Assembly (NCBI RefSeq): GCF_002100115.1
Contig: NZ_ANBM01000005.1
Location: 124,001 to 188,000 of the forward strand
From: Anaerovibrio sp. JC8
GTDB lineage: Bacteria > Bacillota > Negativicutes > Selenomonadales > Selenomonadaceae
DNA: 64,000 nt
Direction: 5' to 3'
The first letter of the stretch is position 1, and each line of letters starts with the position of its first letter. The position numbers and the translations under genes are program-made. Shown here in pieces: positions 10,092-26,047 of this stretch. The notes below the pieces were generated by a model. The model was not told the origin of the DNA. It was given only the letters and a program-made list of their open reading frames with translations, and did no database searches.

Positions 10092-13000
10092 CTATCTGGT
10101 CTTTACGCAATCATCACCCAAAATTTCCTTTAACAGTGACAAGGCTTCCTCGGAGCCATCTATCCACATAGACTGCTCCGTTTTAATAACCTTCTTGCGC
10201 GCAGAATAATAAATATATACAACGTGATCGCCCTGATGGGTAGTCAGCACATCCTTTACAGCCTTATACACTGCGTCATTTTCATGAGCCGCACTGATGG
10301 CCAGGTAAATATCCGGCTTATAATCCCTTAGCAGACAAACTCTGTCAGCCAATACCTTGATACCCTCATCAGTATAATTAACCTTGCCGCCGATCATGAC
10401 TGCCGAATCAGGCTCCAATGCATTAACGCAACTATAGAACACCTTTGGGAATACCACCACCTCAATGGAATGGGAGAAATCCTCCACCTCCAGGAAGCAC
10501 ATGGTGTCACCCTTCTTGGTGGCAATACGCTTGGCACTAACTATCATGCCACCCAGCTTCACATTCTTGCCGTCCTTGACCTTTCCGGCCAAAATATTGC
10601 TTATACCGGTAAAGCCCTTGAGAGTATCACCATATTCATCCAAAGGATGGCCTGTAATGTAGAAGCCGGTGATTTCCTTCTCCCACATAAGCCGGGTACT
10701 GTTATCCACCTCAGGAATATCCTGCAGCTTCACCTCAGTTACAGTGTTCAGCTCCTCTTCGTCAAAGAGGCCCATCTGTCCGGTAGCCTTATCCTTCTGT
10801 GCCACCGTCGCAGCATCAACAGTCTGGGATAACACATCCAGCAGCTGGGACCGCCGAGCCCCAATGGAATCAAAGGCACCGCATTTAATCAGGCTTTCAA
10901 TAACCCGCTTGTTAATGGTCCGCATATCTATCCGGCTGCAGAAATCCATCAATGACGTAAAAGGACCACCATTGTTGCGTTCCACTTCCAGATTAATAAG
11001 GGCCGCCTCACCAACGTTCTTTACCGCTGCCAAGCCAAAGCGAATAGCTGAGCCATCAACGCTAAAGTTGGTGGAGCTGGCATTTATATCCGGTGGCAGC
11101 ACAGCAATGCCCATGCGCCGGCACTGCTCAATATAAACACTGACCTTGTCGGTGGTATTCATAACACTGGTCAGCATGGCCGCCATAAATTCCTCAGGAT
11201 AATTGGCCTTTAGATAAGCTGTCTGCCAGGCCACATAAGCATAAGCCGCACTATGGGATTTATTAAAGCCATAGTCAGCAAAATGAGTCAGCAAGTCAAA
11301 TATCTTATTGGCCAGCTCCCCATCAATGCCATTCTGCTCACAGCCCTTTAAGAAATTTTCCTTCTGGGCCATCAGAATGGCCGCCTTTTTCTTACCCATG
11401 GCACGGCGCAGCAAATCCGCTTGTCCCAAGGTAAAGCCAGCCAGCACCTGCACTATCTGCATAACCTGTTCCTGATAGAGCACCACGCCAAAGGTTTCTT
11501 TCAGAATAGGCTCCAACAGTGGGTGCATATAGGTTACTTCCTTGGTGCCATGACGACCAGCAATAAAGTCATCCACCATGCCGCTGCCCAGTGGACCCGG
11601 GCGGTACAGGGCCACCAAAGGAATAAGGTCTGTAAAGCCTTCCGGCCGCAGTTCCTTAATTATATTGGTCATGCCGCTGGATTCCATCTGGAACACCGCG
11701 CTGGTATAACCGTTGCAGAGAAGCTCCGAGGTCTTTTTGTCCACCAATGGAATAGTGCGCAAATCAACATCAAGGCCCCGATTTTTCTTGATATTCTTAA
11801 TGGCATCATCCAGCACCGTAAGAGTACGCAGCCCCAGAAAATCCATTTTTAACAGGCCCAACTCCTCCACATGGTCCTTAGGATACTGGGTTACCAAAGT
11901 GCCGTCAGATACCATTACCGGCAAATAATCAGTCAAAGGATTGCGGGCTATCACTATACCCGCCGCATGGGTGGAAGAATGACGTGGCAGTCCCTCTACC
12001 CCCATGGCATAATCCAGCAAACGATGCACTTCAGGAGATTCCTCATAAAGAGTCCGCAGCTCCTTGGTGCTGTCAATGGCCTTCTGAATGGTTATGCCCA
12101 ATTCTTCCGGTACCAGCTTGCTTACCCGCAATACGTCACTATATGACATATCAAGGGCCCGGCCCACATCCTGAATAGCACCCTTGGCCGCCAAGGTACC
12201 AAAGGTGGCAATCTGGGCCACATGGTCCTCACCATAGCGACGTTTTACATAATCAATAACCTCTTCACGACGGACATAACAAAAATCCACGTCGATATCC
12301 GGCATGGTTACGCGCTCAGGGTTCAAAAAACGCTCAAAGAGCAAGGAATATTTTAATGGGTCAATATCCGTAATTCCCAGTAAATAAGCTACAATACTGC
12401 CAGCCGCCGAACCACGCCCCGGGCCCACCGGAATCTGTTGGCTGCGGGCATAATTTATAAAGTCCCATACAATAAGGAAATAGCTGTCAAAGCCCATGGT
12501 GTGAATAACACCCAGCTCATACTCCAGCCGATCCCGCACCTCTTTGGTTTCCTCCGGATAATGGGAAGACAGATTGTCCTCACAGAGCTTTCTAAGATAC
12601 TGCTCATCCGTCATCCCCTCCGGCAATGGGAACCGTGGCAAATGGCGGCTCTCAAAATCAAATTCAACGTGACAACGCTCTGCTATTTTAACAGTATTGG
12701 AAAGAGCCTCCGGATACTCCGGAAACAGCTGGGCCATTTCTTCCGGACTCTTCAAATAAAAGTCGCTGCCAAAAAACTTCATCCTGCCTGGATCATCCAC
12801 GGTTTTCTTCATCTGAATGCATAAAAGAATATCATGATACTCACTGGCCTCACGGGTCAGATAATGAGCATCATTGGTGGCTACCAGGCCAACGCCGTAT
12901 TTACGGGCCAGCTCAACAAGACCTTCATTGGCCTTATGCTCCTGCTCCATGCCATGGTCCTGAATCTCAATAAAGAAATTCTCCTTGCCAAAAATATCCA

Positions 13001-13514
13001 AATAATCCTGAAGGGACTTTTCCGCTCTACTCATGTCCCCACGCAGAATCCAGGCGGGAATTTCCCCGGCGATGCAGGCACTGAGACAGATAATTCCCTC
13101 ATGATACTCCCGCAGCAGCTCCTTGTCTATACGAGGCTTATAGTACATACCCTCAATGTTGGCCTTGGACACCAGCTGCACCAGATTCTTGTATCCAGTC
13201 TGATTTTCCGCCAGCAAAATCAGGTGATAATACTTGGTACCATCTACCTCAAAGGTCTCCCGACGGTCCCGGGGAGCCACATAGACCTCACAGCCAATAA
13301 CAGGATTAATCCCTTCAGCCTTGGCCGCCTTATAAAAATCGATAACACCAAACATATTGCCATGGTCAGTAATGGCCAGGTGCTTCATCCCCAGCTCCTT
13401 GGCCCGCTTCACCAACGGCTTTATCCTATTAGCACCATCCAGCAAACTGTACTCTGTGTGTACATGTAAGTGGGCAAAATCTATATTATTGTTCTCAAGC
13501 ATACTTTCTTCCAT
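10092..13514 (-). CDS. dnaE: DNA polymerase III subunit alpha (DnaE)
   Basis: 1140 residues, the full length for replicative DnaE. The N-terminal PHP domain begins FAHLHVHTEYSLLDG. The polymerase core contains GPGRGSAAGSIVAYLLG and the catalytic PDIDVDF aspartates. Helix-hairpin-helix and OB-fold regions follow. The motif QMGLF near residue 910 looks like a beta-clamp-binding site. The start ATG has GGAGG 7 bases upstream. The C-terminal OB/tail end is shorter than in E. coli, as is normal for this group. Confidence 0.96.
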   Translation of the reverse strand: MEESMLENNNIDFAHLHVHTEYSLLDGANRIKPLVKRAKELGMKHLAITDHGNMFGVIDFYKAAKAEGINPVIGCEVYVAPRDRRETFEVDGTKYYHLILLAENQTGYKNLVQLVSKANIEGMYYKPRIDKELLREYHEGIICLSACIAGEIPAWILRGDMSRAEKSLQDYLDIFGKENFFIEIQDHGMEQEHKANEGLVELARKYGVGLVATNDAHYLTREASEYHDILLCIQMKKTVDDPGRMKFFGSDFYLKSPEEMAQLFPEYPEALSNTVKIAERCHVEFDFESRHLPRFPLPEGMTDEQYLRKLCEDNLSSHYPEETKEVRDRLEYELGVIHTMGFDSYFLIVWDFINYARSQQIPVGPGRGSAAGSIVAYLLGITDIDPLKYSLLFERFLNPERVTMPDIDVDFCYVRREEVIDYVKRRYGEDHVAQIATFGTLAAKGAIQDVGRALDMSYSDVLRVSKLVPEELGITIQKAIDSTKELRTLYEESPEVHRLLDYAMGVEGLPRHSSTHAAGIVIARNPLTDYLPVMVSDGTLVTQYPKDHVEELGLLKMDFLGLRTLTVLDDAIKNIKKNRGLDVDLRTIPLVDKKTSELLCNGYTSAVFQMESSGMTNIIKELRPEGFTDLIPLVALYRPGPLGSGMVDDFIAGRHGTKEVTYMHPLLEPILKETFGVVLYQEQVMQIVQVLAGFTLGQADLLRRAMGKKKAAILMAQKENFLKGCEQNGIDGELANKIFDLLTHFADYGFNKSHSAAYAYVAWQTAYLKANYPEEFMAAMLTSVMNTTDKVSVYIEQCRRMGIAVLPPDINASSTNFSVDGSAIRFGLAAVKNVGEAALINLEVERNNGGPFTSLMDFCSRIDMRTINKRVIESLIKCGAFDSIGARRSQLLDVLSQTVDAATVAQKDKATGQMGLFDEEELNTVTEVKLQDIPEVDNSTRLMWEKEITGFYITGHPLDEYGDTLKGFTGISNILAGKVKDGKNVKLGGMIVSAKRIATKKGDTMCFLEVEDFSHSIEVVVFPKVFYSCVNALEPDSAVMIGGKVNYTDEGIKVLADRVCLLRDYKPDIYLAISAAHENDAVYKAVKDVLTTHQGDHVVYIYYSARKKVIKTEQSMWIDGSEEALSLLKEILGDDCVKTR

Positions 13515-13646
13515 GCTTAATCCTCCACTATTTACTCATCTTATTATTATACCCTATATGTAGATATTTTGCCCTCATTATTTATAATCTTAAAAGCTAA
13601 TACACCAGTGCCCCTGCCCCTGAACGCACTATCTTATTTTGTTTAC

Positions 13647-13681
13647 ATAATAACAAAGGGCATGTGCAATATACTGCACAT
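13647..13681 (-). promoter_or_regulatory. Island promoter/operator copy 1 (ATGTGC-N8-GCACAT plus TATTAT)
   Basis: A 20-bp inverted repeat (13662-13681) is extended by GGG/CCC arms to 13658-13685. On the minus strand TATTAT (13647-13652) begins 11 bases after the TTGCAC part of the repeat. The same geometry recurs at 15.87, 19.4, 22.8 and 24.6 kb. It lies 133 bases upstream of dnaE and after the PD-(D/E)XK gene, for which the extended stem followed by TTTGTTATT could also act as terminator. The rest of 13515-13805 holds no gene I can support. Confidence 0.6.
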
Positions 13682-13805
13682 ACCCAAATTGAATCTAATC
13701 TTTTTAATTTTGAATACATCAATATTCTTTATATGTTGGCTGCTCAGAAATACAGTTTTATTTCGTACAAATACCAAACATGCCACGACAACTGTATTAA
13801 TTCTA

Positions 13806-14927
13806 TTAAAATATACAAACAAGTGGATTATCCTCGTCAGGATCTACAAAAGCAATATTGAAAATGTATTCCTCTCCTCTAACTTTTTCCTTAATACAAA
13901 TCTTTCTTCTAGTATCGTCTTTGATAAATTCTTTAAAACTATCTTTTTCATTTAAAATGCCTTCTATCTGTGATGGATTTAACATATTCTCCAATGAATA
14001 ATCACTATCATACAGATACTTGTAAAAAGATCTTTTCATCGATTTTACTTCGGATTTAGTATCTTTATCGCCATCCAATGATGGTGTATAAGAGTAACTG
14101 ACAATATAAATTTGTGGCTTATCTGATATCATATCCACAGTATTTACACCATATAGCGGGTTTTGGGGATCAATTATCCCTAATTCAATATTTGATTTAA
14201 TCATTTCAACCAATTCATGTCTCAACTGATTGGTATATGAAGCAGTATTATATAAATACCGTAGAAAATCAGCAATATGACTTACAACACCACTTCCATA
14301 TTTGACTTTTCGATGCTTAGCAATGTAAAGATTTTTACTCAATTCCTCATATTCTTCTTTTTTTTCTCCATAAGTTTTTCCGTTCAGCCCTTTAAAGCTT
14401 CTATTCGTTACCTTTAACTCAATAAGTGCAACATCATGTTTCCTCTCTTTATTCAATTTACGATTTATAGCAATCATATCGAATCGTCCACAAGGATTAG
14501 TTTTATCAATGTATTCCATGTCAATGTAATACCAATCATCCAAAACCTGGTTCGCGCCATTCATAAGCCATTGCTGACATATTTTTTCCCGTCTTTTTTT
14601 CCGATCGTGTCCTCCAGAAACATGCTTTTTGATTTGCCTACATATAGTCTCAAATGAATCCTGTAAAACATCAAATGTCATTTCTTTTTTAGAATCATCA
14701 TCTTCAACATAATAACGATCCGTCTCGTAAATTGTATTTCCTTCCTTTTCGGTAAGTTTAAATGCACACATCCCCTTGTAATATAACTCTAGATAATCTC
14801 TTCTAAATCCAACAAAAAACACCCTGTTTCCTTGCTCGTCTGTCTCAAAACACTTTTTTACAAGATATTTGTATTCATCTATATGATTGTTTTTAAGATT
14901 ATCCAATAGTTTTTCGCAAGACCTCAT
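13806..14927 (-). CDS. Uncharacterised protein with a PD-(D/E)XK nuclease-like core
   Basis: 373 residues, no named family recognised. Around residues 155-185 the pattern GRFDMIAINRK, a short spacer, then DVALIELKV gives the D-Xn-ExK active site of PD-(D/E)XK nucleases, with beta strands before and after. The N-terminal 130 residues hold charged stretches (GGHDRKKRREK) and the C-terminal third is acidic. AGGAGGGG lies 6 bases before the ATG. It is the last gene of a unit with the pentapeptide protein and a small membrane protein. A DNA-cleaving defence effector is plausible but inferred. Confidence 0.7.
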   Translation of the reverse strand: MRSCEKLLDNLKNNHIDEYKYLVKKCFETDEQGNRVFFVGFRRDYLELYYKGMCAFKLTEKEGNTIYETDRYYVEDDDSKKEMTFDVLQDSFETICRQIKKHVSGGHDRKKRREKICQQWLMNGANQVLDDWYYIDMEYIDKTNPCGRFDMIAINRKLNKERKHDVALIELKVTNRSFKGLNGKTYGEKKEEYEELSKNLYIAKHRKVKYGSGVVSHIADFLRYLYNTASYTNQLRHELVEMIKSNIELGIIDPQNPLYGVNTVDMISDKPQIYIVSYSYTPSLDGDKDTKSEVKSMKRSFYKYLYDSDYSLENMLNPSQIEGILNEKDSFKEFIKDDTRRKICIKEKVRGEEYIFNIAFVDPDEDNPLVCIF

Positions 14928-15193: not shown

Positions 15194-15820
15194 CTAGTTA
15201 TCTTCCATCTTCATCATTGCTTCACACATATCGACAACAACCAAGAATTCCTGCCTATACTGACCTTCAGGATACTCTTCATCAATATGTTGTTTGAATT
15301 CTTCAAGTGTTCCTTCCCAATCGCTTGTAAGCCAATCGCGCCTGATTAAATTGTCATCAATGTAGCATACAACATATTCTTTTTGACTTCCTACCGGACC
15401 GACCTGCAAAATCCTGGATGGCAGTTTAGCTGCGGTTAAATTGGTTCCATTTAATAAAGCACCACGCAGGTCAGTATTGCTCAGGTTGGCATCATGCAGA
15501 TTAGCCCCATCAAAAACAGTATTACAAAGGGTCGCCCCCTGAAGATTGGCCGACCACATTTCGGCCCTATTCAGGATACTTTCACTCAAATTGGCTCCAC
15601 GCAAATCAGCTTTATCCAGGAAACAAAAACTCAAATCTGCTCCACTCAGATTAGCCCCCTGCAGATTGGCCCCCCTCAGGTCAGCATAACACAAATCAAA
15701 TCCACACAAGTCTGCTTCACTCAGGTCAGCTCCAGAAAGGTCAGCTTTTTCTCCACCAATTTCACCTATAAGCCATTTTTCATGACGTTCTAAAATCTCC
15801 TGCAGTTTATCCTTATCCAT
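15194..15820 (-). CDS. Pentapeptide-repeat protein
   Basis: 208 residues. Residues about 25-130 consist of tandem A(D/N)LxX repeats (ADLSGADLSEADL, GANLQGANLSGADL and so on) that should form a right-handed quadrilateral beta helix. The last 75 residues form a separate non-repeat domain rich in acidic and aromatic residues. Such proteins can act as DNA mimics or scaffolds, but no role is shown here. First gene of the unit leading to the small membrane protein and the PD-(D/E)XK protein. The shared island operator lies about 60 bases upstream. Confidence 0.88.
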   Translation of the reverse strand: MDKDKLQEILERHEKWLIGEIGGEKADLSGADLSEADLCGFDLCYADLRGANLQGANLSGADLSFCFLDKADLRGANLSESILNRAEMWSANLQGATLCNTVFDGANLHDANLSNTDLRGALLNGTNLTAAKLPSRILQVGPVGSQKEYVVCYIDDNLIRRDWLTSDWEGTLEEFKQHIDEEYPEGQYRQEFLVVVDMCEAMMKMEDN

Positions 15821-15865
15821 AGAAATTTCCCCTTTCCCAAAACCATGACATTCACTTTTGTTTTT

Positions 15866-15904
15866 ATAATATCAAAGGGCATGTACAAAATATTGCACAT
15901 GCCC
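15866..15904 (-). promoter_or_regulatory. Island promoter/operator copy 2 (upstream of the pentapeptide gene)
   Basis: The 20-bp core at 15881-15900 is ATGTAC-AAAATATT-GCACAT on the plus strand. On the minus strand TATTAT (15866-15871) follows TTGTAC by 11 bases. Flanking GGGC/GCCC extends the stem to 28 bases, so it may also terminate transcripts from the ADP-ribosylglycohydrolase gene, which ends at 15921. Confidence 0.7.
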
Positions 15905-15920
15905 AATTTAAATATATCTA

Positions 15921-16733
15921 TTATTTTGCTCCAATTTTATATTGCTCAAAATCTGTCATTATACCGAGAAATTCTTCTGGCAGTCTGCTTTCACATTCCT
16001 TTTTCATTTCATCAGGGACGCCATACATTGCTTCGCCTACCGAACCCGCTATACAGGTCAGCGTATCACAATCACCACCAAGGGATACGGCATTTCTAAT
16101 AACATCCTCAAAATCCGTCCCTTCAAAAAATGCCGTCAGTGCTTCCGGGACAGTTTCCTGACAGCTTTCCACATGATGATATGTCGGCCGGATATCATCA
16201 AGGGTGCGTGAAAAAACATAGCCATAGTTTTCAACAATATACTTCTTTATTTCACCCTTGCTGCTGCCTGTACGAGCCATATATATTGCTGACGCTATGG
16301 ACTCAGCCCCCTTTATTCCTTCTGGATGGTTGTGGGATATTTCAGCAGACCATCTTGCCACTTCTTTTGTCATCTCCAATGAGTCAAAGGACCAACCAAT
16401 GGCAGAAACCCGCATGGCAGCTCCATTCCCAAAGCTGTTATAAGGCTGAGGATTTGGTAATCTTAACCACCTTGCAAACATACCCCCATAATCCCTGACA
16501 GCATATCTGTTGCCAATATCCTGCATACACGTAATAAATGCTTTTTTCATTGTTACTTCGTCCGAATCAGTTCCCACTGTCATTATCCCCTTGGCTATTG
16601 CCAGGGTCATTGCCGTATCATCTGTGTATCTGACCAGCTTCCGGGGATCAAACAGAATAAAGTCCTTTGATTTATTCCCCCGATCAAACTCATAAGGTGC
16701 GCCTATCATATCACCTAATATTGCTCCATACAT
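15921..16733 (-). CDS. ADP-ribosylglycohydrolase (ARH/DraG family)
   Basis: 270 residues. Family enzymes remove ADP-ribose from proteins or related conjugates with two bound metal ions. The metal-site motifs are present: GAILGDMIGAPYE at the N terminus, RYTDDTAMTLA near residue 35, and SLGGDCDTLTCIAGS near residue 220. The ATG directly follows the TAA of the tandem DnaA-like gene (TAAATG), so the two are translationally coupled. No ADP-ribosyltransferase is visible nearby, so the substrate is unknown. Confidence 0.9.
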   Translation of the reverse strand: MYGAILGDMIGAPYEFDRGNKSKDFILFDPRKLVRYTDDTAMTLAIAKGIMTVGTDSDEVTMKKAFITCMQDIGNRYAVRDYGGMFARWLRLPNPQPYNSFGNGAAMRVSAIGWSFDSLEMTKEVARWSAEISHNHPEGIKGAESIASAIYMARTGSSKGEIKKYIVENYGYVFSRTLDDIRPTYHHVESCQETVPEALTAFFEGTDFEDVIRNAVSLGGDCDTLTCIAGSVGEAMYGVPDEMKKECESRLPEEFLGIMTDFEQYKIGAK

Positions 16734-18035
16734 TTACCTTTTCTCCCCCCATATATCCTGAACATTGTTGTCCAGTTTCTCTTTCAGCCTGTACCTGTTC
16801 ATATTCACTACCACTCCACCAGAAAATCTGGAACGAAGTTCTTCTAACAATCCTCTTGACTTATAAGGTGGACAATCTCCAGAAATAACTATCTGATTAT
16901 TTGCGTCCATCACAGCATCAAAGATATTGCGTAATCCTTCCTGAATTGGCAGTCTACGACTGCATAACTGAATATCATCCAGAAGTAAAAGGTCCGCATT
17001 TCTATACTTTTTTAAAAATATTTCTATTTTATTATCACGAACAGAACCAATTAATTCCTCTGTAAATTCCCCTCCAGTGGTATAAACTACTGCTTTCTCT
17101 GGATTATTCTTCTTGAACTCATCACCAATATCATGCAATAAATGTGTCTTACCTGCACCTGTATCTCCGTACAAATAAACCGGATTATATTTTCCTCCAG
17201 GATTAGCAACCACCTCAGAGATTAAGAAATGTGCAAAGTTTGAAGTTTTATCTTCGTTTATTTCATTTTTTGTGTCAACTTGTGGTATAACATTTCCGCT
17301 GGAATTAGCTAAAAATCCTTGCAATGCCTTAGCCGCCAGATCAGTTGTTATATCAGATTGCAGCAACTCAGCATAGCCCATCACTGTTTCTAAGACACCA
17401 TTTAATTCTCGCATATTACTGTCTATATTGTTAGCAAGATACTGAATAACATCATCACCTACATTGATATTTTTTATTTCAGCCTTGCCTTTTAAAAAGG
17501 CAATCCTTGTTTCCAAATCTGGCTTGTGAATCACTGCTATTGACTTACTGGACAATTTGATATGTAGATTTTTCTCCAACCATTTTTTCTCATCATACTT
17601 TTTGCCAATCATATTATGTGGGCAATTACCAGAAAAAACTATCCGACCATTCGCTTTCTTCATCTCATTAAGGATAAGTAATAGTTCTTTCGTAGTCCTT
17701 TGGCGATAAACTAACGATTGAATTTCATCCATAAGTAAAAGGCTTACATTGCTGTACTTTAGCCTAAACTTATCCATATTGTTGTCTCTCAAAGCGTTAA
17801 CCATTTCTTCTGTAAATTGCTGTACAGTTGTATAAATCACTTTATTATCTGGATTCTTTTTTATGAACTCATTGCCTATAGCACGCAATAAATGAGTCTT
17901 ACCAACGCCTATACCACCGTACAAATAAATTGGATTATGTTTTATGTCTGGATTAGTGGCCATATCAAAAGCTAATGAATATGCCATGCGATTAGAGCTG
18001 CCAACAGTAAATTGATCAAATACATATTTTGTCAT
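16734..18035 (-). CDS. Tandem DnaA-type AAA+ ATPase without a DnaA DNA-binding domain
   Basis: 433 residues, two DnaA-like AAA+ modules. Module 1 (about 1-235) starts YVFDQFTVGSSNR, has Walker A GGIGVGKTHL, Walker B LLLMDEIQSL, sensor 1 RIVFSGN, PDLETRIAFL and sensor-2-like NMRELNGVL. Module 2 (about 255-433) has GDTGAGKTHL, LLLLDDIQL, QIVISGDCPP and the arginine-finger box LRSRFSGG, then stops before a lid. DnaA domain I and the domain IV helix-turn-helix are absent. AGGAGG lies 8 bases before the ATG. It sits between the MBL and ARH genes with gaps of 3 and 0 bases. Function unknown; it could act on DnaA, or as a nucleotide-driven switch. Confidence 0.85.
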   Translation of the reverse strand: MTKYVFDQFTVGSSNRMAYSLAFDMATNPDIKHNPIYLYGGIGVGKTHLLRAIGNEFIKKNPDNKVIYTTVQQFTEEMVNALRDNNMDKFRLKYSNVSLLLMDEIQSLVYRQRTTKELLLILNEMKKANGRIVFSGNCPHNMIGKKYDEKKWLEKNLHIKLSSKSIAVIHKPDLETRIAFLKGKAEIKNINVGDDVIQYLANNIDSNMRELNGVLETVMGYAELLQSDITTDLAAKALQGFLANSSGNVIPQVDTKNEINEDKTSNFAHFLISEVVANPGGKYNPVYLYGDTGAGKTHLLHDIGDEFKKNNPEKAVVYTTGGEFTEELIGSVRDNKIEIFLKKYRNADLLLLDDIQLCSRRLPIQEGLRNIFDAVMDANNQIVISGDCPPYKSRGLLEELRSRFSGGVVVNMNRYRLKEKLDNNVQDIWGEKR

Positions 18036-18038
18036 TTG

Positions 18039-19313
18039 TTAATCCTCCTGTAACTTCGACTTTAGCTCTTCGGAAATGTTCAACGCCCTAAAGCCAGCGA
18101 CGTTTTCCGTATGTATCGGCCAGATTTTGTGGGTGGGATTCACCTTGTTTATTACCTGCTCGATTAGCTCAGTGAAGGCGTGTCCGCTGGTGTGCTTGGA
18201 AAAAGCGTTATATTTCTTGCAAAATGCAGCCAGCTTTTCATCATAAGCCTGATTCTCCGGATTCAAATAGCCATCCCACATGGAATAAATCAATTCCGGC
18301 TTAGTGTCCGAAAGCTCATCCATAACCCGCTCATAATGCTCTGCTTCCCTGACTACTGCCACAAAGCCCTTTTTCCGCATTTCTCTTATGATGTTTAGGG
18401 CCTGTGTGTTATCCGCTCCTTCTTTGTCAGATATAAACGGTAATGGCTGTACATTGTAGAAATTATACATGGAAGTGTGCCATCTTTTGCCGGCCTGTCT
18501 ATATACTTTAAACTGCTGCAAAATATACTTGTTGGCATACATTTTTATCCCATTTTTCCTGGCAGCCTGATAAAAGCTGGCCAGACTGTCTGCATTGGTG
18601 GAAGAAATCCTGAGAAAAATATGTCTATGTTCCTTGAAATACTCAGTGGCCCAAGCCATAAGGTCTTTCTCTGAAAAACGCTTTTCCTGGGACCGTTCCC
18701 CCATCATTGTGCCTTCAATAATAAGGTCATCCACACGTCTGCCATCCTTCAGGATATGTTTTTCTATAACCTCCAAAATGATATTTCTGTCCCCATTTTT
18801 GCCCTTCTTATGTCCACGATGGCCATGGTCCCGAAAATCCCCTGTGTACAGGATATTCCTTCCATCAGCTTCCACAAGATACATAAGGGCATCATAAGCG
18901 GAATGATCCACTGCAAAGCCGGTTACCACCACATCGTCATTTATTGCAATAGACTCGTTGACTTCTACAAATTTAATCGTCCCCTTGGTCAGCCGTGCTT
19001 TCATTGAATTAACTGTATCCCAGTCATGAAGTGCTTTACGGATATTAAGCAAAACCTTAAAGGTAATCCTTCCCATATACATGATCACATCATCAGGAAT
19101 CTCCATAAAACGGCCAATATGGTCCCCATGATAATGAGTGAAGAATACAGCATCCACCCTTTCCTTGTCCCAGTCATACTTTATGTTGGTGGTGTCCTTT
19201 GCTCCAGGCAGACTCAGTCCAAAATCTATCAGTATTTTTGTTTTTTCTGTTGCAAGCTCCGTGACACAGCCACCTATTCTGTCCTCGTTATATATTTTGA
19301 TGCTGCAAGCCAT
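18039..19313 (-). CDS. Metallo-beta-lactamase-fold hydrolase, RNase J/beta-CASP-like
   Basis: 424 residues. Metal-binding motifs: FFTHYHGDHIG (HxHxDH), GFAVDHSAYDALMY, YTGDFRDHG, and a C-terminal HTSGHA followed by IHTEN. This order resembles beta-CASP enzymes such as RNase J, which cleave nucleic acids. An in-frame ATG at 19346 exists, but GAAGGGGG lies 7 bases before the ATG at 19311-19313, which is preferred. It is first gene of the MBL, tandem DnaA-like, ARH unit and has the shared island operator about 90 bases upstream. Nuclease activity is inferred. Confidence 0.82.
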   Translation of the reverse strand: MACSIKIYNEDRIGGCVTELATEKTKILIDFGLSLPGAKDTTNIKYDWDKERVDAVFFTHYHGDHIGRFMEIPDDVIMYMGRITFKVLLNIRKALHDWDTVNSMKARLTKGTIKFVEVNESIAINDDVVVTGFAVDHSAYDALMYLVEADGRNILYTGDFRDHGHRGHKKGKNGDRNIILEVIEKHILKDGRRVDDLIIEGTMMGERSQEKRFSEKDLMAWATEYFKEHRHIFLRISSTNADSLASFYQAARKNGIKMYANKYILQQFKVYRQAGKRWHTSMYNFYNVQPLPFISDKEGADNTQALNIIREMRKKGFVAVVREAEHYERVMDELSDTKPELIYSMWDGYLNPENQAYDEKLAAFCKKYNAFSKHTSGHAFTELIEQVINKVNPTHKIWPIHTENVAGFRALNISEELKSKLQED

Positions 19314-19362
19314 TTGTTTTCCCCCTTCGTTTTTTTGGCTTTTCATGGATGTCCACTGAAAA

Positions 19363-19405
19363 GCACATCTATTATGTTGAGCTTAGTCTAACACAATAGA
19401 TGTGC
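19363..19405 (-). terminator. Terminator after the WYL gene, overlapping the MBL promoter
   Basis: GCACATCTATT and AATAGATGTGC form an 11-bp stem followed on the minus strand by TTTTC. One arm lies inside the island operator copy 3, upstream of the inferred start site. The hairpin can therefore form only in read-through RNA from the WYL gene, not in RNA from the MBL promoter. Confidence 0.65.
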
Positions 19406-19419
19406 AATATTTTGTACAC
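19385..19419 (-). promoter_or_regulatory. Island promoter/operator copy 3 (upstream of the MBL/DnaA-like/ARH unit)
   Basis: On the minus strand GTGTAC-N8-GCACAT (19400-19419) differs from the consensus at one end base. TAGACT (19385-19390) lies 11 bases after TTGCAC, the same spacing as at the other copies. No separate -35 is visible, which would fit activator-dependent transcription. Confidence 0.7.
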
Positions 19420-19446: not shown

Positions 19447-20451
19447 TTATTTGCAGTATTTTTGCCACATATTTTCCACATCTTTCCGAAGCTGATCGCG
19501 CAATTCCTTTGGCCTCAACACCTCAACATTTGGCCCGTATTGCAAAGCCCAATACCTGATGGCACTTTCGTTACACTTTACCCGGATAACAATATAGTCT
19601 TCCTTCTCTTCTTCGATGGTAAAATCCTTACCGAACCAGTCAACCAAATCTCCCATCCTGTTCGGTTGGGTCTTTATCCATACCGGAACAGTTTCACCAC
19701 TGAACATATAAATGTGTTCCGCCATGTGTTTAGGCAAATCCAATTTTTTACCATGAGCCAACTCTGGTATTTCTTCTTCCTTTTTTCTTGACGCAGCAAG
19801 GATTTCTATCTTCGTCATTTTATCAATGCGCAGATGAATAAGATTATCATGCCCATCCATATTACCAATAAGATAAAAGCGGCCGTTATTTGCTACCATC
19901 TGATATGGGTTAACTACATAAGGCTCGTTCTTCTTCGGATGCAGCTTTTTATCAAGGCCCATTTCATTGAAAATAAACTGGATTTTCTTCTCTTGTTCAA
20001 TGGCTGCATTTATCACATCCACCACCTGGGCGACTGCTTCATTATCCGTATGACTAAGGGATGGAAGATTACATACATGGGTCACTTTTTTCTCGAAATT
20101 TTTACTGGCAAATCTCTGGAGTTTTTTTATTAAAGCCTTAGCCTGCTGCTGAGAAATGGTTTTTGAAAACAACACACTATCCACCAGCATTCTGAGCTCC
20201 CACTCCTCAAAGGTCCGTTGGAGCCAGTATCCTTTTCCGCTTATATGCACAATCTTCCGATCAAATGGGTCAAAATAATCATTTAAATCATCCAAAACCC
20301 GGCCTACTGTACGCCGGTCACAAATAATACCATATTCACTTTGCAATTTTTCTATTATATCGCATTGTCTCAGCTGGGTATTCCTATCTGTGTATTTTTG
20401 CAATATATCCAAAATATACAGATTAATAAGTCTTTTATTTCCTGTTTCCAT
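19447..20451 (-). CDS. WYL-domain transcriptional regulator
   Basis: 334 residues. The N-terminal 80 residues form a winged helix-turn-helix (QCDIIEKLQSEYGIICDRRTVGRVLDDL). A WYL domain covers about 140-230, with the family-typical VNPYQMVANNGRFYLIG, and a WCX-like C-terminal segment follows. WYL regulators often control defence islands and respond to nucleic acid or nucleotide ligands. It has its own transcript, flanked by terminators, and carries no copy of the shared island operator upstream. It is the leading candidate for the protein that binds that operator. Confidence 0.88.
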   Translation of the reverse strand: METGNKRLINLYILDILQKYTDRNTQLRQCDIIEKLQSEYGIICDRRTVGRVLDDLNDYFDPFDRKIVHISGKGYWLQRTFEEWELRMLVDSVLFSKTISQQQAKALIKKLQRFASKNFEKKVTHVCNLPSLSHTDNEAVAQVVDVINAAIEQEKKIQFIFNEMGLDKKLHPKKNEPYVVNPYQMVANNGRFYLIGNMDGHDNLIHLRIDKMTKIEILAASRKKEEEIPELAHGKKLDLPKHMAEHIYMFSGETVPVWIKTQPNRMGDLVDWFGKDFTIEEEKEDYIVIRVKCNESAIRYWALQYGPNVEVLRPKELRDQLRKDVENMWQKYCK

Positions 20452-20655: not shown

Positions 20656-22710
20656 TCACACAAACCCGATTGCAGTCTTAGGCTTTTTGTACATCTTTTC
20701 TGCATTTACAGAAAAATCATCTGCCATAAGAGATGTTAGATCCTTACGGCTGATCTTTTTGCCATTGGACTCCTTTATAAGTCTGTCTGACTGCTTCATC
20801 ATGGCCTGTTCCAAGAGATTTCTGGCAAAGCGCCCATTGCCAAATTCCGATTGTCCGCAGGCACATTTAAATATATCCAGGCACTTTTCCCGTACCTCAT
20901 CATTAATTTCATACCCCTTGTTTTTTACCATAAGCTCAAGAATTTGAAGCATCTCCTCGGCATTATAGTCAGGAAAATCCAAATGAAAAGCAATACGGCT
21001 TCTCAGCCCTTCATTTTCCGCCAAAAACTGTTCCATTCTATCAGGATACCCGGCAAAAATAACAATGACGTCATCCCGTCTATTCTCCATTTCCTGCACA
21101 ATAGTATTAATGGCCTCCGCCCCAAAGGAATTTGTATAATTATCTACCAATGCATAGGCCTCATCAATGAATAATATACCTCCCTTGGCTTCACGGAACT
21201 TTTTCTGCACTATCTGAGCTGTCCACCCCACATATTTACCTACAAGATCCGCACGACCGCACTCCACAAAATGCCCCGTCTCCAATACACCTTCCTGCTT
21301 CAGGATTTCCGCCATAAGGCGGGCAATCGTAGTTTTGGCACTGCCCGGATTGCCGGTAAAAATCATGTGCTGGGATACTTTGTAGTTATCCAGCCCCAGC
21401 TTGCTTCTGGACTGTCTGATTTTGGCAGTATTAATAATCTGGTCCACCAATGCTTTTATATCCGCAAGCCCCACCATATTCTGCAGTTCCTCATAAGGCT
21501 TGTTTTCTTTCTTCTTTTCCCTAACAGCAACCTTCTCCACTGATTTGTATGCCTTGTAGGCCTTGCTCTTCAGCCCATTGCTAAACCATTTATTATAAGT
21601 TTTGTATACTTCAGTTGCCGTAAAGGTCTTGGTTTTGGTCGGTAAAGCCTTTTCCAGTTCCCCACGGGAAGCCTTGAATTGTGATTTCTTCGTCAGCTTT
21701 TCCAAGTAATTAACTGCCTGCTCCTTGTCTCCCCTTCCTTCACAGATTTCTATCAGGTGTATATCATCCTGTACAGCTGCAATAAGGCCTTTACTAAACC
21801 CAGGATTTTCCGAAAGCTGCACAAAAAAGCAAAGTGTATACATCTGGTTATCTACCACTGTCTTTGCAATAAAATCTACAACCTCCCGATATGCAGAAGC
21901 GTACACTCCGTGGTCTTCATCAGTACCACTCATATCAATCGCCACAGCCGATCCCCTGCCCAATTCAAACATTTGCTGGAAATCTTCATCACCGGAGCAA
22001 TGCTCACTAATTTTATTAACGTAGCTTACCCGTCCTCCCAAAAGTCGGTTATTTGCCTTCAATGCAAAAACAAGCAGGCTAATAATATCATTGGCAGCCT
22101 GTACCGTTCCTGCCGTGATAACATAATGTACAGGATTACCATAATATTTCTTTTCATTCTGGCTGGAATAAATTCTGTCAATCTCCTCCAACAGGCTTTT
22201 GTCAGCCATAATATCATCAGCAAAAGATTTAAGTTTCCTTTTGGTGATGTCCTCCTGCTCATATACCCGTTCCTGAACCTGAAACCTTCTGTTTTCAAGA
22301 TAATCCAGTCCCAGCTTGTTTGCTATATTCCATCCACTATAAAAGTCCCTGTCATTGGCCTTATCAAGAAGTTTATTAAATTCTTTTGCAGAAATTTCGC
22401 GGATATTTTCCACTGCCACATTTTTAACGGCATAATTATCCAAAAAATGATTCTTAATCCACTTCTCACAGTCTTTTAAAGTAACCTTTTCCAAATTGCA
22501 GGCAAAAACCATCTCCCAGTGTCCATATTCACCATTTACGGCAGCGACACTCAGGTTGTCATCCAAGCCGCAGCGAACCCCAAGGCCATCGTTGGCGTCA
22601 TTAATAATCCGGCAAATTCTTTTATCATCAATTGCAGGATTCAGGGTTTCCTTATCGTTCTTTTGAGTCCGCAGAGATTCATATCTCAATTCAGCTTTGT
22701 AAATAATCAT
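20656..22710 (-). CDS. CbxX/CfxQ (SpoVK)-type AAA+ ATPase with a large unknown N-terminal region
   Basis: About 684 residues. The C-terminal third (about 410-650) is a CbxX-type AAA+ domain: ELQNMVGLADIK, Walker A GNPGSAKTT, Walker B ILFIDEAYAL, sensor VIFAGYPDRM and arginine finger GLRSRI. The first 380 residues match nothing I recognise. Related ATPases remodel partner proteins (rubisco, type VII secretion substrates). An in-frame ATG at 22725 overlaps the ribosome site; GGAGG (22719-22723) is 8 bases before the ATG at 22708-22710, which is preferred. Its own promoter carries the shared island operator. Confidence 0.85.
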   Translation of the reverse strand: MIIYKAELRYESLRTQKNDKETLNPAIDDKRICRIINDANDGLGVRCGLDDNLSVAAVNGEYGHWEMVFACNLEKVTLKDCEKWIKNHFLDNYAVKNVAVENIREISAKEFNKLLDKANDRDFYSGWNIANKLGLDYLENRRFQVQERVYEQEDITKRKLKSFADDIMADKSLLEEIDRIYSSQNEKKYYGNPVHYVITAGTVQAANDIISLLVFALKANNRLLGGRVSYVNKISEHCSGDEDFQQMFELGRGSAVAIDMSGTDEDHGVYASAYREVVDFIAKTVVDNQMYTLCFFVQLSENPGFSKGLIAAVQDDIHLIEICEGRGDKEQAVNYLEKLTKKSQFKASRGELEKALPTKTKTFTATEVYKTYNKWFSNGLKSKAYKAYKSVEKVAVREKKKENKPYEELQNMVGLADIKALVDQIINTAKIRQSRSKLGLDNYKVSQHMIFTGNPGSAKTTIARLMAEILKQEGVLETGHFVECGRADLVGKYVGWTAQIVQKKFREAKGGILFIDEAYALVDNYTNSFGAEAINTIVQEMENRRDDVIVIFAGYPDRMEQFLAENEGLRSRIAFHLDFPDYNAEEMLQILELMVKNKGYEINDEVREKCLDIFKCACGQSEFGNGRFARNLLEQAMMKQSDRLIKESNGKKISRKDLTSLMADDFSVNAEKMYKKPKTAIGFV

Positions 22711-22771
22711 ATTGCCCGCCTCCATCTAATAGCAGCCATATTTTCAAATATCCTCTTTTTCTTTTGTCTGT

Positions 22772-22806
22772 ATTCTACAATATTGGATGTACAATATTTT
22801 GTACAT
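22772..22806 (-). promoter_or_regulatory. Island promoter/operator copy 4 (upstream of the CbxX-type gene)
   Basis: The best copy: GATGTACAA-TATT-TTGTACATC is a perfect 9-bp inverted repeat. On the minus strand TAGAAT (22772-22777) begins 11 bases after TTGTAC. It lies about 75 bases before the ATG and directly after the terminator at 22828-22870. Confidence 0.78.
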
Positions 22807-22827: not shown

Positions 22828-22870
22828 GCACATCCATCCTGCTAAACTGAGTCTAACAAAATAGATGTGC
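22828..22870 (-). terminator. Terminator after the AlbA_2 gene
   Basis: GCACATCTAT and ATGGATGTGC arms with a G-T pair, followed on the minus strand by TTTTTTC. The loop contains TTAGACTCAG, similar to the loop of the terminator at 19363-19405, so the two are relatives. Confidence 0.8.
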
Positions 22871-22895: not shown

Positions 22896-24263
22896 CTATT
22901 TTTCGGGGTTCCTAACATACACTGTTTGTTTACCTCGGCCCATTGGCATTATACGCCCCTGCTCCTTCAGTTTTCTCAATATTCTGGTTGCAGTGGACAG
23001 GCTCACTCCCAGCTCCTTTTCCACTTCCAGGCGGGTAAGCTCCCTCCTTGTATTGAACATATCCAATACCCTCGTATATACGTCATTATCAATATACGTG
23101 GTCCTATATGTTCCCGGTGCTTCCGTAACCATCTGTTCCCTGCCCTGATAAATTAAGTTCGGCAGTAAGACCTTAAATATGCCCTCAACTGCCACAAAGG
23201 ATGGCTGAAAGCCATGGGCATTGTATATATCTGACCCGGTGTCCCTGTTGGCATAACCCGCCTGCATTTTGCTGAAGCCGGTGCCATACATTTCAATCAG
23301 CTTCAGACGATAAAAAATGTTGGCCAGCTTGGGATTACGGCAGGCCGATACACCACTCAGGGCCATTTCAAGGGTAATATCTCTTGGCAGGCCACCATAA
23401 GATAATATCTCTATCCTATCAGCGAAAATGCTAACCTTCGTGCTTACAGACAGCGAAGAATAATCCCTATGAACCACTGCATTAATTAATGCTTCCCGCA
23501 AGGCCACCGGCGGATAGCTTCTCTGATCATGGCGATACAGACCATTAAAGGACGCCGCGGTATGGTTATTAAGCTCCAAATAACTATAAGCATCGTTCAT
23601 CTGCTTGAATACTGATCCGGAAAATTCTTTACGGTCCTGAAAATCCAGGCAATCAGTACCACGAAAAACTGCGCCTTTTATGATGTGGGGACATTGATCA
23701 GATACCAGCAACCCAAGATTGGTGTACATTCCATCACTGTTGGTAATACCCAGGGACTGCATTTGAACCTTGGATAAATCAATGTTCCTTTTCGAAAATT
23801 CCTCCATCATTTGCTTAAAGGTGAGCTCCTGATCAACTGAAAGCATATCCTCATAATTTCCCAGAGAATCACTTATCATTTTCCTTATCAGGTATATGCT
23901 GGCGGGATTGGAAGCTGAGCCATTGCGGATATATACCCCATTGGATGTGAGTCCTTTATCTTTAAGATAGTAGGGACGGTCCGGCCCCTTCTGAATAGTT
24001 GCCTCCACCACTTTTTTACCATCAAAATCCTTGACAGCGCAGGATATAAATCCCATGATATCCGGTCTTACGTTATCTCTGGCACAGTTTATTACTGACA
24101 GCATCACATCATCTGGACTGTCTACACCTGTTACAGTCCCCGTGTCATCTACGCCGATGTAAATTGTCCCGCCCATGGAATTGGCAAAGGCCACTATTTC
24201 CTTGCGAATCCCTTTGGTAAACTCTCTCTTCAGCTCAACAGTGCCGCTCTCCGTAAACTTCAT
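22896..24263 (-). CDS. AlbA_2 (Schlafen-like) domain ATP-binding regulator
   Basis: About 455 residues. Residues 5-130 form an AlbA_2/Schlafen AAA_4-type domain (ELKREFTKGIRKEIVAFAN, GGTIYIGVDDTG). A HATPase-like region around 250-330 has ALREALINAVVHRDYS and IEILSYGGLPRDI. A C-terminal winged helix (RLEVEKELGVSLSTATRILRKLKEQG) is present. Such proteins are usually regulators. A GTG at 24275 is in frame, but AAGGTGG lies 8 bases before the ATG at 24261-24263. It has its own promoter without the shared operator, so it is a second candidate regulator of the island. Confidence 0.87.
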   Translation of the reverse strand: MKFTESGTVELKREFTKGIRKEIVAFANSMGGTIYIGVDDTGTVTGVDSPDDVMLSVINCARDNVRPDIMGFISCAVKDFDGKKVVEATIQKGPDRPYYLKDKGLTSNGVYIRNGSASNPASIYLIRKMISDSLGNYEDMLSVDQELTFKQMMEEFSKRNIDLSKVQMQSLGITNSDGMYTNLGLLVSDQCPHIIKGAVFRGTDCLDFQDRKEFSGSVFKQMNDAYSYLELNNHTAASFNGLYRHDQRSYPPVALREALINAVVHRDYSSLSVSTKVSIFADRIEILSYGGLPRDITLEMALSGVSACRNPKLANIFYRLKLIEMYGTGFSKMQAGYANRDTGSDIYNAHGFQPSFVAVEGIFKVLLPNLIYQGREQMVTEAPGTYRTTYIDNDVYTRVLDMFNTRRELTRLEVEKELGVSLSTATRILRKLKEQGRIMPMGRGKQTVYVRNPEK

Positions 24264-24287
24264 TCTCCCCACCACCTTTCTGATTAA

Positions 24288-24973: not shown

Positions 24974-25375
24974 TCATAATATTTTTTCCTTTGCTAAATA
25001 TTCACCTATACATTCTACAAAACATTCCGCCTGCTCAATCTGTTTTTCTGCATCCTCCTTCGAAGCAATAAAGAAATCCAGATAGTCAGCCTTCTCTCTG
25101 CTTTCAGAAGAATATTTGATAATTTTAGATAATTCTTTCGTAAATACTCCACTTTTTACATAGTTTTGGTTGAAATATGAAATTACTCCACTATGCTTGC
25201 TGCTATCAAAGCCATCTAGGGCACAAACAGCTCTAATTGCGTGAAATATTGCATAATAGGCCCGATTAAGGGCATTTTTATACCTTCCATTATCAAACAT
25301 TAACTTTGCGTCTGCAATATTTTCAAGACTGGTTTCATATCTATATTTGGATAATTCCTCTATGCTGCCTTCCAT
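24974..25375 (-). CDS. HEPN-domain toxin of a MNT-HEPN pair
   Basis: 133 residues, all-helical HEPN domain (PF05168-like). The segment NRAYYAIFHAIRAV holds the R-x6-H ribonuclease motif. HEPN toxins cleave RNA and are neutralised by the partner nucleotidyltransferase, in known cases by adenylylating a HEPN tyrosine. The start overlaps the end of the MNT gene by 16 bases, the usual coupling for the pair. Confidence 0.87.
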   Translation of the reverse strand: MEGSIEELSKYRYETSLENIADAKLMFDNGRYKNALNRAYYAIFHAIRAVCALDGFDSSKHSGVISYFNQNYVKSGVFTKELSKIIKYSSESREKADYLDFFIASKEDAEKQIEQAECFVECIGEYLAKEKIL

Positions 25376-25902
25376 AAAACAATACCCTCTTTTTCAATAT
25401 TTTTATAAAACGGCAATGAATTTTTCCACTCCAAATAATTTTGGATTTCAATAGGAATAACAGATAACGATACAGCCAAATCTAATTCATAATCTACAAC
25501 AATGTCTATCATTTTATCATGTTGCTCTTGGCTGATATCTGCTTTTAATATAAGGGCGATATCAACATCAGAATCAGCACTTTCTTCGCCTCTGGCATAA
25601 GAACCATATAAAATAATTTTATCGACGCTATCACCATATATGCCATGAATATCATAACACATTTTAAGAAGTGCCTTCATCAATGTTGGATAGTTTTTTC
25701 TGATGGTCATTTTCTTCCGCCAATTACGATAATTGCCATTTTTTATCCGCTTATCCGATGGATATTTCTCGCTTTTAGGAATAATCCACTGATTGCCCAA
25801 TTTTTCTCCGATTAAAGTGCCATTTATGAGCATACGTCTAATATTTCCGCTATCTCTTCCAGTTAAATTGGCATATTCAGTAACAGTATAATAATCCACC
25901 AT
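25360..25902 (-). CDS. MNT-type nucleotidyltransferase antitoxin with an N-terminal HTH
   Basis: 180 residues. The C-terminal domain carries the nucleotidyltransferase signature GSYARGEESADSDVDIAL (GSx10DxD). The first 50 residues, YTVTEYANLTGRDSGNIRRML, form a MerR/excisionase-like helix-turn-helix, which most MNT antitoxins lack, so this protein may repress its own promoter. AAGGAGG (25911-25917) is 8 bases before the ATG at 25900-25902; a longer frame to 25953 would include the promoter and is rejected. First gene of the pair. Confidence 0.87.
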   Translation of the reverse strand: MVDYYTVTEYANLTGRDSGNIRRMLINGTLIGEKLGNQWIIPKSEKYPSDKRIKNGNYRNWRKKMTIRKNYPTLMKALLKMCYDIHGIYGDSVDKIILYGSYARGEESADSDVDIALILKADISQEQHDKMIDIVVDYELDLAVSLSVIPIEIQNYLEWKNSLPFYKNIEKEGIVLWKAA

Positions 25903-25924
25903 AAAAAGCACCTCCTTTTTTCTA

Positions 25925-25953
25925 ACATTAACACAGTATCGTGTAAATGTCAA
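25925..25953 (-). promoter_or_regulatory. MNT-HEPN promoter with an internal inverted repeat
   Basis: On the minus strand TTGACA (25948-25953) and TAATGT (25925-25930) are 17 bases apart. The spacer contains TTTACAC-N6-GTGTTAA, an inverted repeat with one mismatch that overlaps the -10. This is where an autoregulating antitoxin would bind. Confidence 0.7.
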
Positions 25954-26010: not shown

Positions 26011-26047
26011 TAAGTTATTTTCAATGTACTCTTTTACTTGTTCTACC

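Follow-up and report, generated by a model that had tools for sequence, protein, structure and literature searches.

WYL proteins bind palindromic or inverted-repeat sites ahead of defence operons, as described for CapW (PMC9122588) and BrxR (PMC9122601). The ARG-centric systems, as set out in PMC9503650, have a WYL or Nudix regulator in more than 42% of cases and a coupled phosphatase in a little over 55%, and EF2904 (2az4) is named in PMC3095777 as a structure of metallo-beta-lactamase (MBL) plus beta-CASP type. Here we describe a predicted operon of three genes, encoding an MBL, a tandem DnaA-type AAA+ ATPase and an ADP-ribosylglycohydrolase (the trio), in the genome of Anaerovibrio sp. JC8 (label G000; 2.68 Mb, 33 contigs). 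The stretch analysed (the window) is the 64,000 nucleotides (nt) at G000:C5:124001-188000. The trio had initially been annotated as a possible undescribed three-gene system. We find that it is one configuration of a swappable, modular island in gut bacteria, and not a conserved unit. The island is probably under one shared switch and, judged from its sequence, looks like an undescribed antiviral defence. No published account of the island or of its operator was found in the open-access literature subset.

The predicted three-gene operon and its conservation

The genes and candidate sites of the island are as follows.

18039-19313, - strand: beta-CASP MBL, predicted nuclease, first gene of the trio (Pfam, alignment, PDB profile match)
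16734-18035, - strand: tandem DnaA AAA+ protein, second gene of the trio (Pfam, alignment)
15921-16733, - strand: ADP-ribosylglycohydrolase of DraG/ARH3 type, third gene of the trio (Pfam, intact motifs)
19447-20451, - strand: WYL/WCX transcription factor, candidate regulator of the island (Pfam)
13806-14927, - strand: MPN (our own name), PD-(D/E)XK-like nuclease candidate (alignment and model)
15194-15820, - strand: pentapeptide-repeat protein, in the direction of the MPN gene (Pfam)
20656-22725, - strand: CbbX/SpoVK-like AAA+ ATPase, the AAA gene (Pfam; copies in sister genomes)
10092-13514, - strand: dnaE, the housekeeping gene that anchors the hotspot; reference for the mini-polymerases with its residues D406, D408 and D558
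19400-19419, no strand: candidate operator before MBL-DnaA-glycohydrolase (palindrome)
15881-15900, no strand: candidate operator before pentapeptide-MPN, also terminator-like (palindrome after the third trio gene)
22787-22806, no strand: candidate operator before the AAA gene (perfect palindrome, no T run)
13662-13681, no strand: candidate operator, with terminator-like features as well, ~150 nt before dnaE (palindrome)

The spacing first reported for the trio was confirmed: all three genes are on the - strand, with gaps of 3 nt and 0 nt. The longest open reading frame (ORF) for the MBL is 18039-19346, and the better start is at 19313, preceded by AAGGGGG; as ORFs were called simply by greatest length, some starts are placed too early. 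Pfam matches, motifs and beta-CASP residues bear out the identities given to the three proteins. The WYL/WCX gene (WYL 2.4e-9, WCX 2.6e-8 in Pfam) does adjoin the trio, on the same strand and 100 nt upstream of the longest MBL ORF. A promoter shared by the three genes is plausible; promoter-like matches occurred only at chance level (48 found, 49.2 expected), and the palindrome at 19400-19419 precedes the first gene. PADLOC 2.0.0 gave generic or partial matches only, in agreement with the view that no named system corresponds to the unit. The best were WYL (5.8e-29), mad8 for the DnaA protein (3.6e-11) and LmuA for the MBL (5.4e-5), with none for the glycohydrolase. The MBL was not taken as a Lamassu LmuA, its match covering 75 residues only.

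Conservation was assessed in 68 MBL loci, made up of the window, 9 other loci of its family, 7 of 9 plasmid matches and 51 loci from a profile search of genome contigs, which gave at least 61 named relatives and is not a census. With a single MBL protein as query no relative was found in the genome contigs, and the phage collection gave no MBL match. L098 and L124 (same contigs as L016 and L017), L146 and L150-L155 (weak, distant or partial matches) and L148 (no MBL called by the ORF caller) were left out; L141, L144 and L145, which hold the MBL only in part, were kept. The gene order of the trio occurs in none of the 67 other loci, many of which end at contig edges. The narrow claim of a conserved triad, which the initial annotation had tied to recurrence of that order in other genomes, therefore fails, and the conserved three-gene system was rejected. 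Besides the window, no locus of the 68 has both a DnaA-like and a glycohydrolase gene within 10 kb of the MBL. Among 151 genomes of the family, at 1e-15, the MBL is found in 9 and a window-type glycohydrolase in 45, the two sets overlapping in the window's own genome alone. The initial observation was real and in the right field; its boundary had been drawn too tightly, leaving out the MPN gene.

The MBL, its partner family of candidate nucleases and the glycohydrolase

MPN is a better-conserved partner of the MBL than are the other genes of the trio. It lies within 10 kb of the MBL in 28 of the 68 loci, directly adjacent in 18, and is found in Clostridia, Bacteroidota and alphaproteobacteria. 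In the window it is 3.1 kb downstream of the MBL, past the DnaA, glycohydrolase and pentapeptide genes. Y49, E114, D136, E138, D150, E170 and K172 are invariant in 23 low-identity homologs, and E114, D150, E170 and K172 make up an E-D-ExK pattern, as in PD-(D/E)XK active sites. None of the 23 members has a Pfam match. The alignment-based model of MPN had a pLDDT of 78.9 and a pTM of 0.83. In VIA-align it ranked PD-(D/E)XK nucleases high, namely McrC (Z 7.3, 134 residues aligned, 3.8 A), HamA (6.3, 190, 5.2 A), EndoMS (6.0, 108, 3.3 A) and SduA (5.8, 157, 4.8 A), all with Z below 8; residues ~5-105 matched YjbR, CyaY and frataxin rows with Z up to 7.1 (YjbR). Foldseek gave no match for MPN at E <= 0.001, and the PDB sequences held no relative, with three matches at E 0.22-0.36. 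Residue pattern and model together suggest a candidate nuclease resembling the PD-(D/E)XK type. Different partner families accompany the MBL in other loci, and in some of these families ELK-like motifs were seen by eye.

The MBL matches Lactamase_B_2 (3e-10) and, below threshold, RMMBL in Pfam, and a profile built on it finds EF2904 (2az4, 2.9e-39), RNase J and Cas14, with matches that cover most of the protein. An alignment of 16 sequences, among them that of the window, shows no variation at H71, H73, D75, H76, H148, D170, E211, H389 and H412; we assign these residues to HxHxDH, to further metal ligands and to the beta-CASP motifs. By profile and residues the protein is of beta-CASP type. 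Its relatives, like those of MPN, are found in Clostridia, Bacteroidota and alphaproteobacteria, and have a same-strand neighbour within 100 nt in 64 of the 68 loci. Among the matches listed, the nearest are in L120 and L179, both 63% identical to the window's. L179 (IMGVR_UViG_3300028886_002124), a contig of a viral collection, also has MPN, a split DnaB_C, a PolC-like gene and a Tn916-type integrase. The genome of L120 has DnaA-like genes on another contig (L161), where a 710-residue protein (L161:2983-5115) resembles both the DnaA module and the CbbX-like AAA protein.

The glycohydrolase matches ADP_ribosyl_GH (3.4e-34, Pfam), has intact GDMIG, TDDT and GGDCDT motifs, and has ARH3/DraG as structural relatives. 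Its link to the MBL is modest. PF03747 is present in 26 of 44 MBL genomes (42 match rows in ~152 Mb) and lies within 10 kb of the MBL in 3 of 44 loci (L106, L130, L138) against ~0.25 expected, a comparison made by hand on a small sample; in L130 and L138 the gene adjoins the MBL on the same strand. Those beside the MBL in other clades are no close relatives of the window's glycohydrolase. A single inheritance may lie behind the cases in its own family (L016, L087, L088, L089), and an 87-residue cluster member in L135 was left out of the count. No ADP-ribosyltransferase was seen among the nine window proteins (Pfam) and no DUF3990 genome-wide at 1e-8, other families not having been searched genome-wide. 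DUF3990, a weak ADP-ribosyltransferase-like match, does occur at the dnaE hotspot of sister species (L174:6909-8244 and L178:3949-5266), with an overlapping second gene in both loci and a helix-turn-helix in L174.

A candidate operator shared by the units of the island

The palindrome ATGTRCAAWATWTTGYACAT, with up to 2 mismatches, has 4 copies in the 2.68-Mb genome, and all are in the island (13662, 15881, 19400 and 22787). The number expected by chance in the window, for a slightly longer pattern, is 0.00. Each copy lies 60-150 nt upstream of a - strand start, ie that of dnaE, of pentapeptide-MPN, of the MBL trio and of the AAA gene. In 1.39 Mb of fetched loci TGTRCA-N6-TGYACA occurs exactly 17 times and its reversed control 0 times, and spacers of 0-12 other than 6 give at most 2 sites each. 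When intergenic sites with up to one mismatch are counted, there are 17 in 29.5 kb (control 0) in the 11 loci where a close WYL homolog is present, which are 16 distinct sites since L160 repeats L099. The other 75 loci have 6 in 156 kb (control 1), all in L082 and L083, which are same-genus islands with DnaA-like and AAA genes. Units with a site at or before them are the WYL-MBL unit (L018, L132, L128), the AAA gene (window, L082, L083, L132), a DnaA-like gene (L081) and the FtsH-like genes of L081 and L099; one mismatch is present in the sites of L132 and L099 and in that at L018:5945. The palindrome thus recurs in islands of Lachnospiraceae, alongside a WYL regulator of the window's family. 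In 16 genomes of the genus there are 54 exact sites against 2 for the control, and in the seven that carry the AAA gene a count by hand put 27 of 32 sites in AAA or DnaA-like islands. This distribution makes TGTRCA-N6-TGYACA a candidate operator. The idea that the palindromes are terminators only was rejected, the copies at 19400 and 22787 having no T run after them.

The sites before dnaE and the pentapeptide gene are part of a 61-bp repeat (84% identical; 13637-13697 and 15856-15916), which contains the palindrome and an A+T-rich stretch. A similar site is found upstream of dnaE in two sister genomes, G008 (one mismatch) and G015. With sites upstream of dnaE in all three genomes, the switch of the island may reach the replicative polymerase. 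In L081 (5876 and 8337) and L082 (2796 and 6209) a TGTRCA-N6-TGYACA site is each time closely preceded by a 32-bp palindrome, CTCCCAGRTGATT...AATCATCTGGGAG, near-identical between the two genomes; these longer palindromes perhaps terminate the preceding unit.

A parallel trio at the dnaE hotspot

The AAA gene has 87-88% identical copies in four sister genomes, and in three of these it adjoins dnaE or lies within about 3 kb of it: it adjoins dnaE in G006 and G008 and is ~2.4 kb away in G015. From dnaE outwards the G015 locus (L175) has MPN, pentapeptide, AAA, WYL, a PDDEXK_4 protein, a glycohydrolase, a shortened DnaB_C and an HD protein, the pentapeptide homolog sitting between the MPN and AAA genes. 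The last three form a parallel trio. Read in its own direction the HD gene is first, followed by the shortened DnaB_C (4.8e-60) and the glycohydrolase, co-directional with gaps of 26 and 56 nt, and the unit stands behind an exact palindrome at 12132. The HD protein is presumably a hydrolase of a metal-dependent superfamily, and the glycohydrolase is 49% identical to that of the window over 263 residues. Taken with the trio of the window, this makes two cases at the hotspot in which a hydrolase, a cut-down replication ATPase and an ADP-ribose eraser come together, the replication protein being a different one each time. Neither the palindrome nor these genes are present in the dnaE stretches fetched from G002 (only 4.3 kb) and G013:C5. 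Another island of the same genus, L081, has RtcB, an RF-1-domain protein (presumably PrfH-like), NT5C, DnaA-like and FtsH-like proteins, a WYL homolog and two exact palindromes. It may be an RNA repair set under a similar kind of switch.

The pairing of replication proteins with ADP-ribose chemistry, which had been put forward for the window, gains support from the parallel trio, from DnaA-like genes near the MBL in Lachnospiraceae, and from polymerase copies without active sites near the MBL in two phyla.

Replication-protein relatives

The second gene of the trio matches Bac_DnaA (1.6e-84, Pfam) over two stretches, and has two Walker A and two Walker B motifs. D1 (residues ~1-245) has Walker A/B and the lid with NMREL, after which it ends in the alignment, and no SRF. 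D2 (~250-433) has Walker A/B and SRF, which we take to be the arginine finger, and stops before the lid. The two modules are 45% identical over 126 residues. A DnaA-box-binding domain was found neither in the alignment nor among the Pfam families listed (25 of 39). The protein was rejected as the host initiator, as a separate match of dnaA length is present at G000:C2. At 1e-30 no other DnaA match in the 151 family genomes spans both modules. With the tandem protein as query, both halves fell on one stretch of ~630-790 nt, ie on a single DnaA, in all 20 plasmid records listed (of 54) and in 18 of the 20 phage records listed (of 38); the match spans 1.05 kb in two Staphylococcus phage records among these 20. 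In an unrooted domain tree the two modules join accessory DnaAs of the same genus (support 0.94), and the accessory DnaAs of Lachnospiraceae group with full-length DnaAs of Lachnospiraceae genomes (0.86), the inner branches being weak. It therefore seems that the two sets of accessory DnaAs arose independently. Of 44 MBL genomes, 5 have two or more PF00308 genes (1e-15), and in 4 of these 5 an extra copy is within about 13 kb of the MBL (distances by hand).

Other relatives of replication and division proteins recur within 10 kb of the MBL: Pol III alpha-like proteins in 11 of the 68 loci (that of the window being the real dnaE), FtsH-like in 7, DnaX-like in 2, and FtsZ-like and DnaB-like in 1 each. 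At least one replication, FtsH-like or FtsZ-like paralog is within this distance in 16 loci, the window and L119 included. Seven of the small Pol III alpha copies (mini-Pols) were aligned, four from Lachnospiraceae (L018, L099, L125, L133) and three from Bacteroidota (L118, L119, L123; the first two near-identical), after 88 leading residues had been trimmed from those of L118 and L123 owing to early ORF starts. The positions of D406, D408 and D558, which we take to be the catalytic aspartates, are lost in all seven. Both aspartates of PDID are gone and the segment of the third is absent, with the flanking core blocks kept. In L118, L119 and L123 the mini-Pol lies ~0.8-1 kb upstream of the MBL gene. 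Two further Pol-like proteins are outside the alignment, that of L091 (597 residues) with no PDxD seen and that of L107 (138 residues) with PDIE. Mini-Pols without active sites likely have binding roles. L016:11031-11768, after the nuclease-like partner of the MBL, encodes an FtsZ C-terminal-domain-like protein (Pfam), and the MBL partner at L089:8236-9351 seems, from clustering only, to be fused to a similar FtsZ-like part.

Other features of the island

Beyond the AAA gene the window has an AlbA_2/Schlafen-type protein (22896-24275) and, beside it at 24974-25953, a HEPN gene (Pfam) overlapped by a gene with a nucleotidyltransferase-like motif seen by eye; the two may form a toxin-antitoxin pair of the MNT-HEPN type. 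At the ends of island genes there is a second hairpin family, GCACATCY...GATGTGY (22828-22870, 25973-26011, 27222-27258 and 19360-19405). These hairpins mostly precede T runs, the copies at 25969 and 27217 are nearly identical, and they are probably terminators.

Proposed mode of action and alternatives

The reading that we put forward, as possible rather than probable, is that the trio forms one of the operons of a modular conflict island under WYL control, in which mimics of replication proteins, accompanied by nucleases and an ADP-ribose eraser, serve as baits or sensors. We infer repression by the WYL protein, the bait function, the coupling of ATPase and nuclease, and a phage trigger. The WYL protein would repress the units by binding TGTRCA-N6-TGYACA, and a nucleic-acid or nucleotide ligand arising from phage attack would release the repressor. 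The nuclease effectors would be the beta-CASP MBL and the PD-(D/E)XK-like MPN. The tandem DnaA protein would act as a bait or sensor mimicking the host DnaA, with two complementary half-sites (SRF in D2, lid in D1). It would draw to itself the phage proteins that take over, modify or block the initiator, and its ATPase state would arm or steer the nuclease. The glycohydrolase would remove phage-attached ADP-ribose from the mimic or from the real replisome, so resetting the sensor; this step would follow the ARG-centric logic of PMC9503650 (section 3.8), with the replisome and its copies as an added target. By analogy with the integrated decoys of plant immunity, it might further be proposed that WYL-switched and partly dead replicas of the replication, and perhaps the division, machinery bait phage takeover proteins and are wired to the beta-CASP/PD-(D/E)XK pair, the eraser keeping bait and replisome clean. 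The decoy set would then include the DnaA ATPase pair, the shortened DnaB, the Pol III alpha copies without catalytic aspartates and the FtsZ relatives. We offer this version with considerable doubt.

A number of observations weigh against the bait reading. The exact trio was found only in the window's genome. A glycohydrolase is within 10 kb of the MBL in 9 of the 68 loci, the window included, one of them a 68-residue fragment (L090), and a DnaA-like protein in 6, of which that of L119 has the canonical length of dnaA. In the stretches fetched, the nearest MBL relatives L120 and L179, and the same-genus L017, show neither a DnaA-like gene nor a glycohydrolase, and neither a close WYL homolog nor the palindrome; the modules are thus optional and none is obligatory. 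The integrase of L179 also fits a mobile element. Five palindromes lie outside islands in the seven AAA-bearing genomes of the genus, a further 22 exact ones occur in the nine genomes without the AAA gene, and two of the four sites of the window are terminator-like as well. Both Walker motifs are kept in the DnaA protein of the window, which is therefore not dead, and the accessory DnaA tree does not resolve whether its modules derive from the local dnaA. The larger PolC-like proteins of L097, L174, L175 and L179 keep PDID, and Walker A and HEAGH are intact in all 7 FtsH-like neighbours, so that active-site loss is a trait of the small polymerase copies.

Without any bait, the glycohydrolase could undo viral ADP-ribosylation of host proteins, with the DnaA-like ATPase a chaperone or remodeller of modified proteins, MBL and MPN a second line, and the WYL protein a sensor of released ADP-ribose. 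Section 3.8 of PMC9503650 predicts such operons, of glycohydrolase, WYL or Nudix, phosphatases, chaperones and restriction endonucleases. The window does have a glycohydrolase with intact motifs, a WYL gene and a PD-(D/E)XK-like gene, and its genome lacks DUF3990 at 1e-8. Pfam recognised no phosphatase among the nine window proteins (in the sister locus L175 an HD protein is coupled) and no peptide-binding chaperone (vWA, SseB or TY-Chap) in the window, TY-Chap models perhaps being outside Pfam. We think ARG-centric repair unlikely, as the glycohydrolase is not the conserved core (9 of 68 loci, against 28 of 68 for MPN), the main text of PMC9503650 is without MBL, metallo-beta-lactamase or DnaA, and the dead mini-polymerases are left unaccounted for. 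Alternatively, the truncated DnaA, DnaB, Pol III and FtsZ relatives and the nucleases could serve, or survive from, a plasmid or integrative element as a replication or maintenance module, the region upstream of dnaE being its landing place only. Butyrivibrio plasmid pCY186 has WYL, MBL, DnaX, DnaA/Hda-like and replication-initiation genes within 17 kb, and in L179 a Tn916-type integrase is beside the MBL, MPN, split DnaB_C and PolC-like genes. However, polymerase copies that have lost their catalytic residues are poor candidates for replicators, no DNA-binding domain was recognised in the tandem DnaA protein, and an integrase is not among the nine window proteins scanned with Pfam; this origin is improbable to a similar degree.

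The trio might also be co-transcribed without working together, having accreted by chance in a defence hotspot, as the uniqueness of the exact triad and the 1e-15 survey (45 of 151 genomes with the window-type glycohydrolase, none other with both it and the MBL) would have it. Gaps of 0 and 3 nt, a parallel HD-DnaB-glycohydrolase trio at the same hotspot behind the same palindrome, and other glycohydrolases beside the MBL in other clades, at the excess counted by hand above, make us regard this as distinctly unlikely. Very unlikely, in our view, is a response to RNA damage, in which the MBL would be an RNase J-like RNase, the WYL protein would sense RNA fragments and the glycohydrolase would clear ADP-ribosylated RNA ends, in repair against ribotoxins. 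It would suit L081, where RtcB, the RF-1-domain protein and a DnaA-like ATPase are behind the shared palindrome with a WYL protein of the window's family, as well as the structural relatives of the MBL, which are mostly RNases, and the HEPN gene near the trio. RtcB, though, is within 10 kb of the MBL in none of the 68 loci (one query, E 1e-8), and the recurrent neighbours of the MBL are paralogs of DNA-replication proteins.

A lone odd operon has become a testable family, with a candidate operator, a Pfam-less partner nuclease family, a parallel trio and dead polymerase copies. Should the mimics prove to be baits, bacteria would be defending themselves against viruses with decoys of the core replisome; this would be categorically new and would explain the truncated housekeeping genes in such islands. 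The predicted ADP-ribose-erasing defence would then also gain a defined protein target.

Comparison with known systems

The closest published idea, itself a prediction, is that of the ARG-centric systems (Iyer, Burroughs and Aravind 2022, PMC9503650). As outlined there, these have in common with the island of the window a glycohydrolase without a recognised coupled ADP-ribosyltransferase, a WYL regulator, a restriction-type nuclease and variable modules. The island differs in that the beta-CASP MBL and the PD-(D/E)XK-like protein are the more recurrent pair, and in two kinds of protein that are absent from section 3.8, the tandem DnaA and the mini-replisome proteins. DraT-DraG and DarT-Macro, as named in the same paper, share with the window an ADP-ribose eraser of the DraG fold family; in the operon of the window no writer was recognised, DUF3990 being absent from the genome and other writers not having been searched for.

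The single proteins also have known counterparts. EF2904, RNase J and Cas14 share with the MBL of the window the MBL and beta-CASP domains and the metal and motif residues; the window's protein is shorter than RNase J and, unlike all three, is borne on an island with PD-(D/E)XK-like genes as neighbours. DnaA and Hda have AAA+ modules of the same DnaA type as the second trio protein, whereas the latter has two modules per chain, with SRF and lid split between the halves and no DNA-binding domain seen. In its proposed control the island resembles CapW/CBASS and BrxR/BREX, which, as described in PMC9122588 and PMC9122601, likewise have a WYL protein and palindromic sites before operons. It differs from them in its effector genes, in the candidate nature of the binding, and in that one site sequence is common to islands of two bacterial families.

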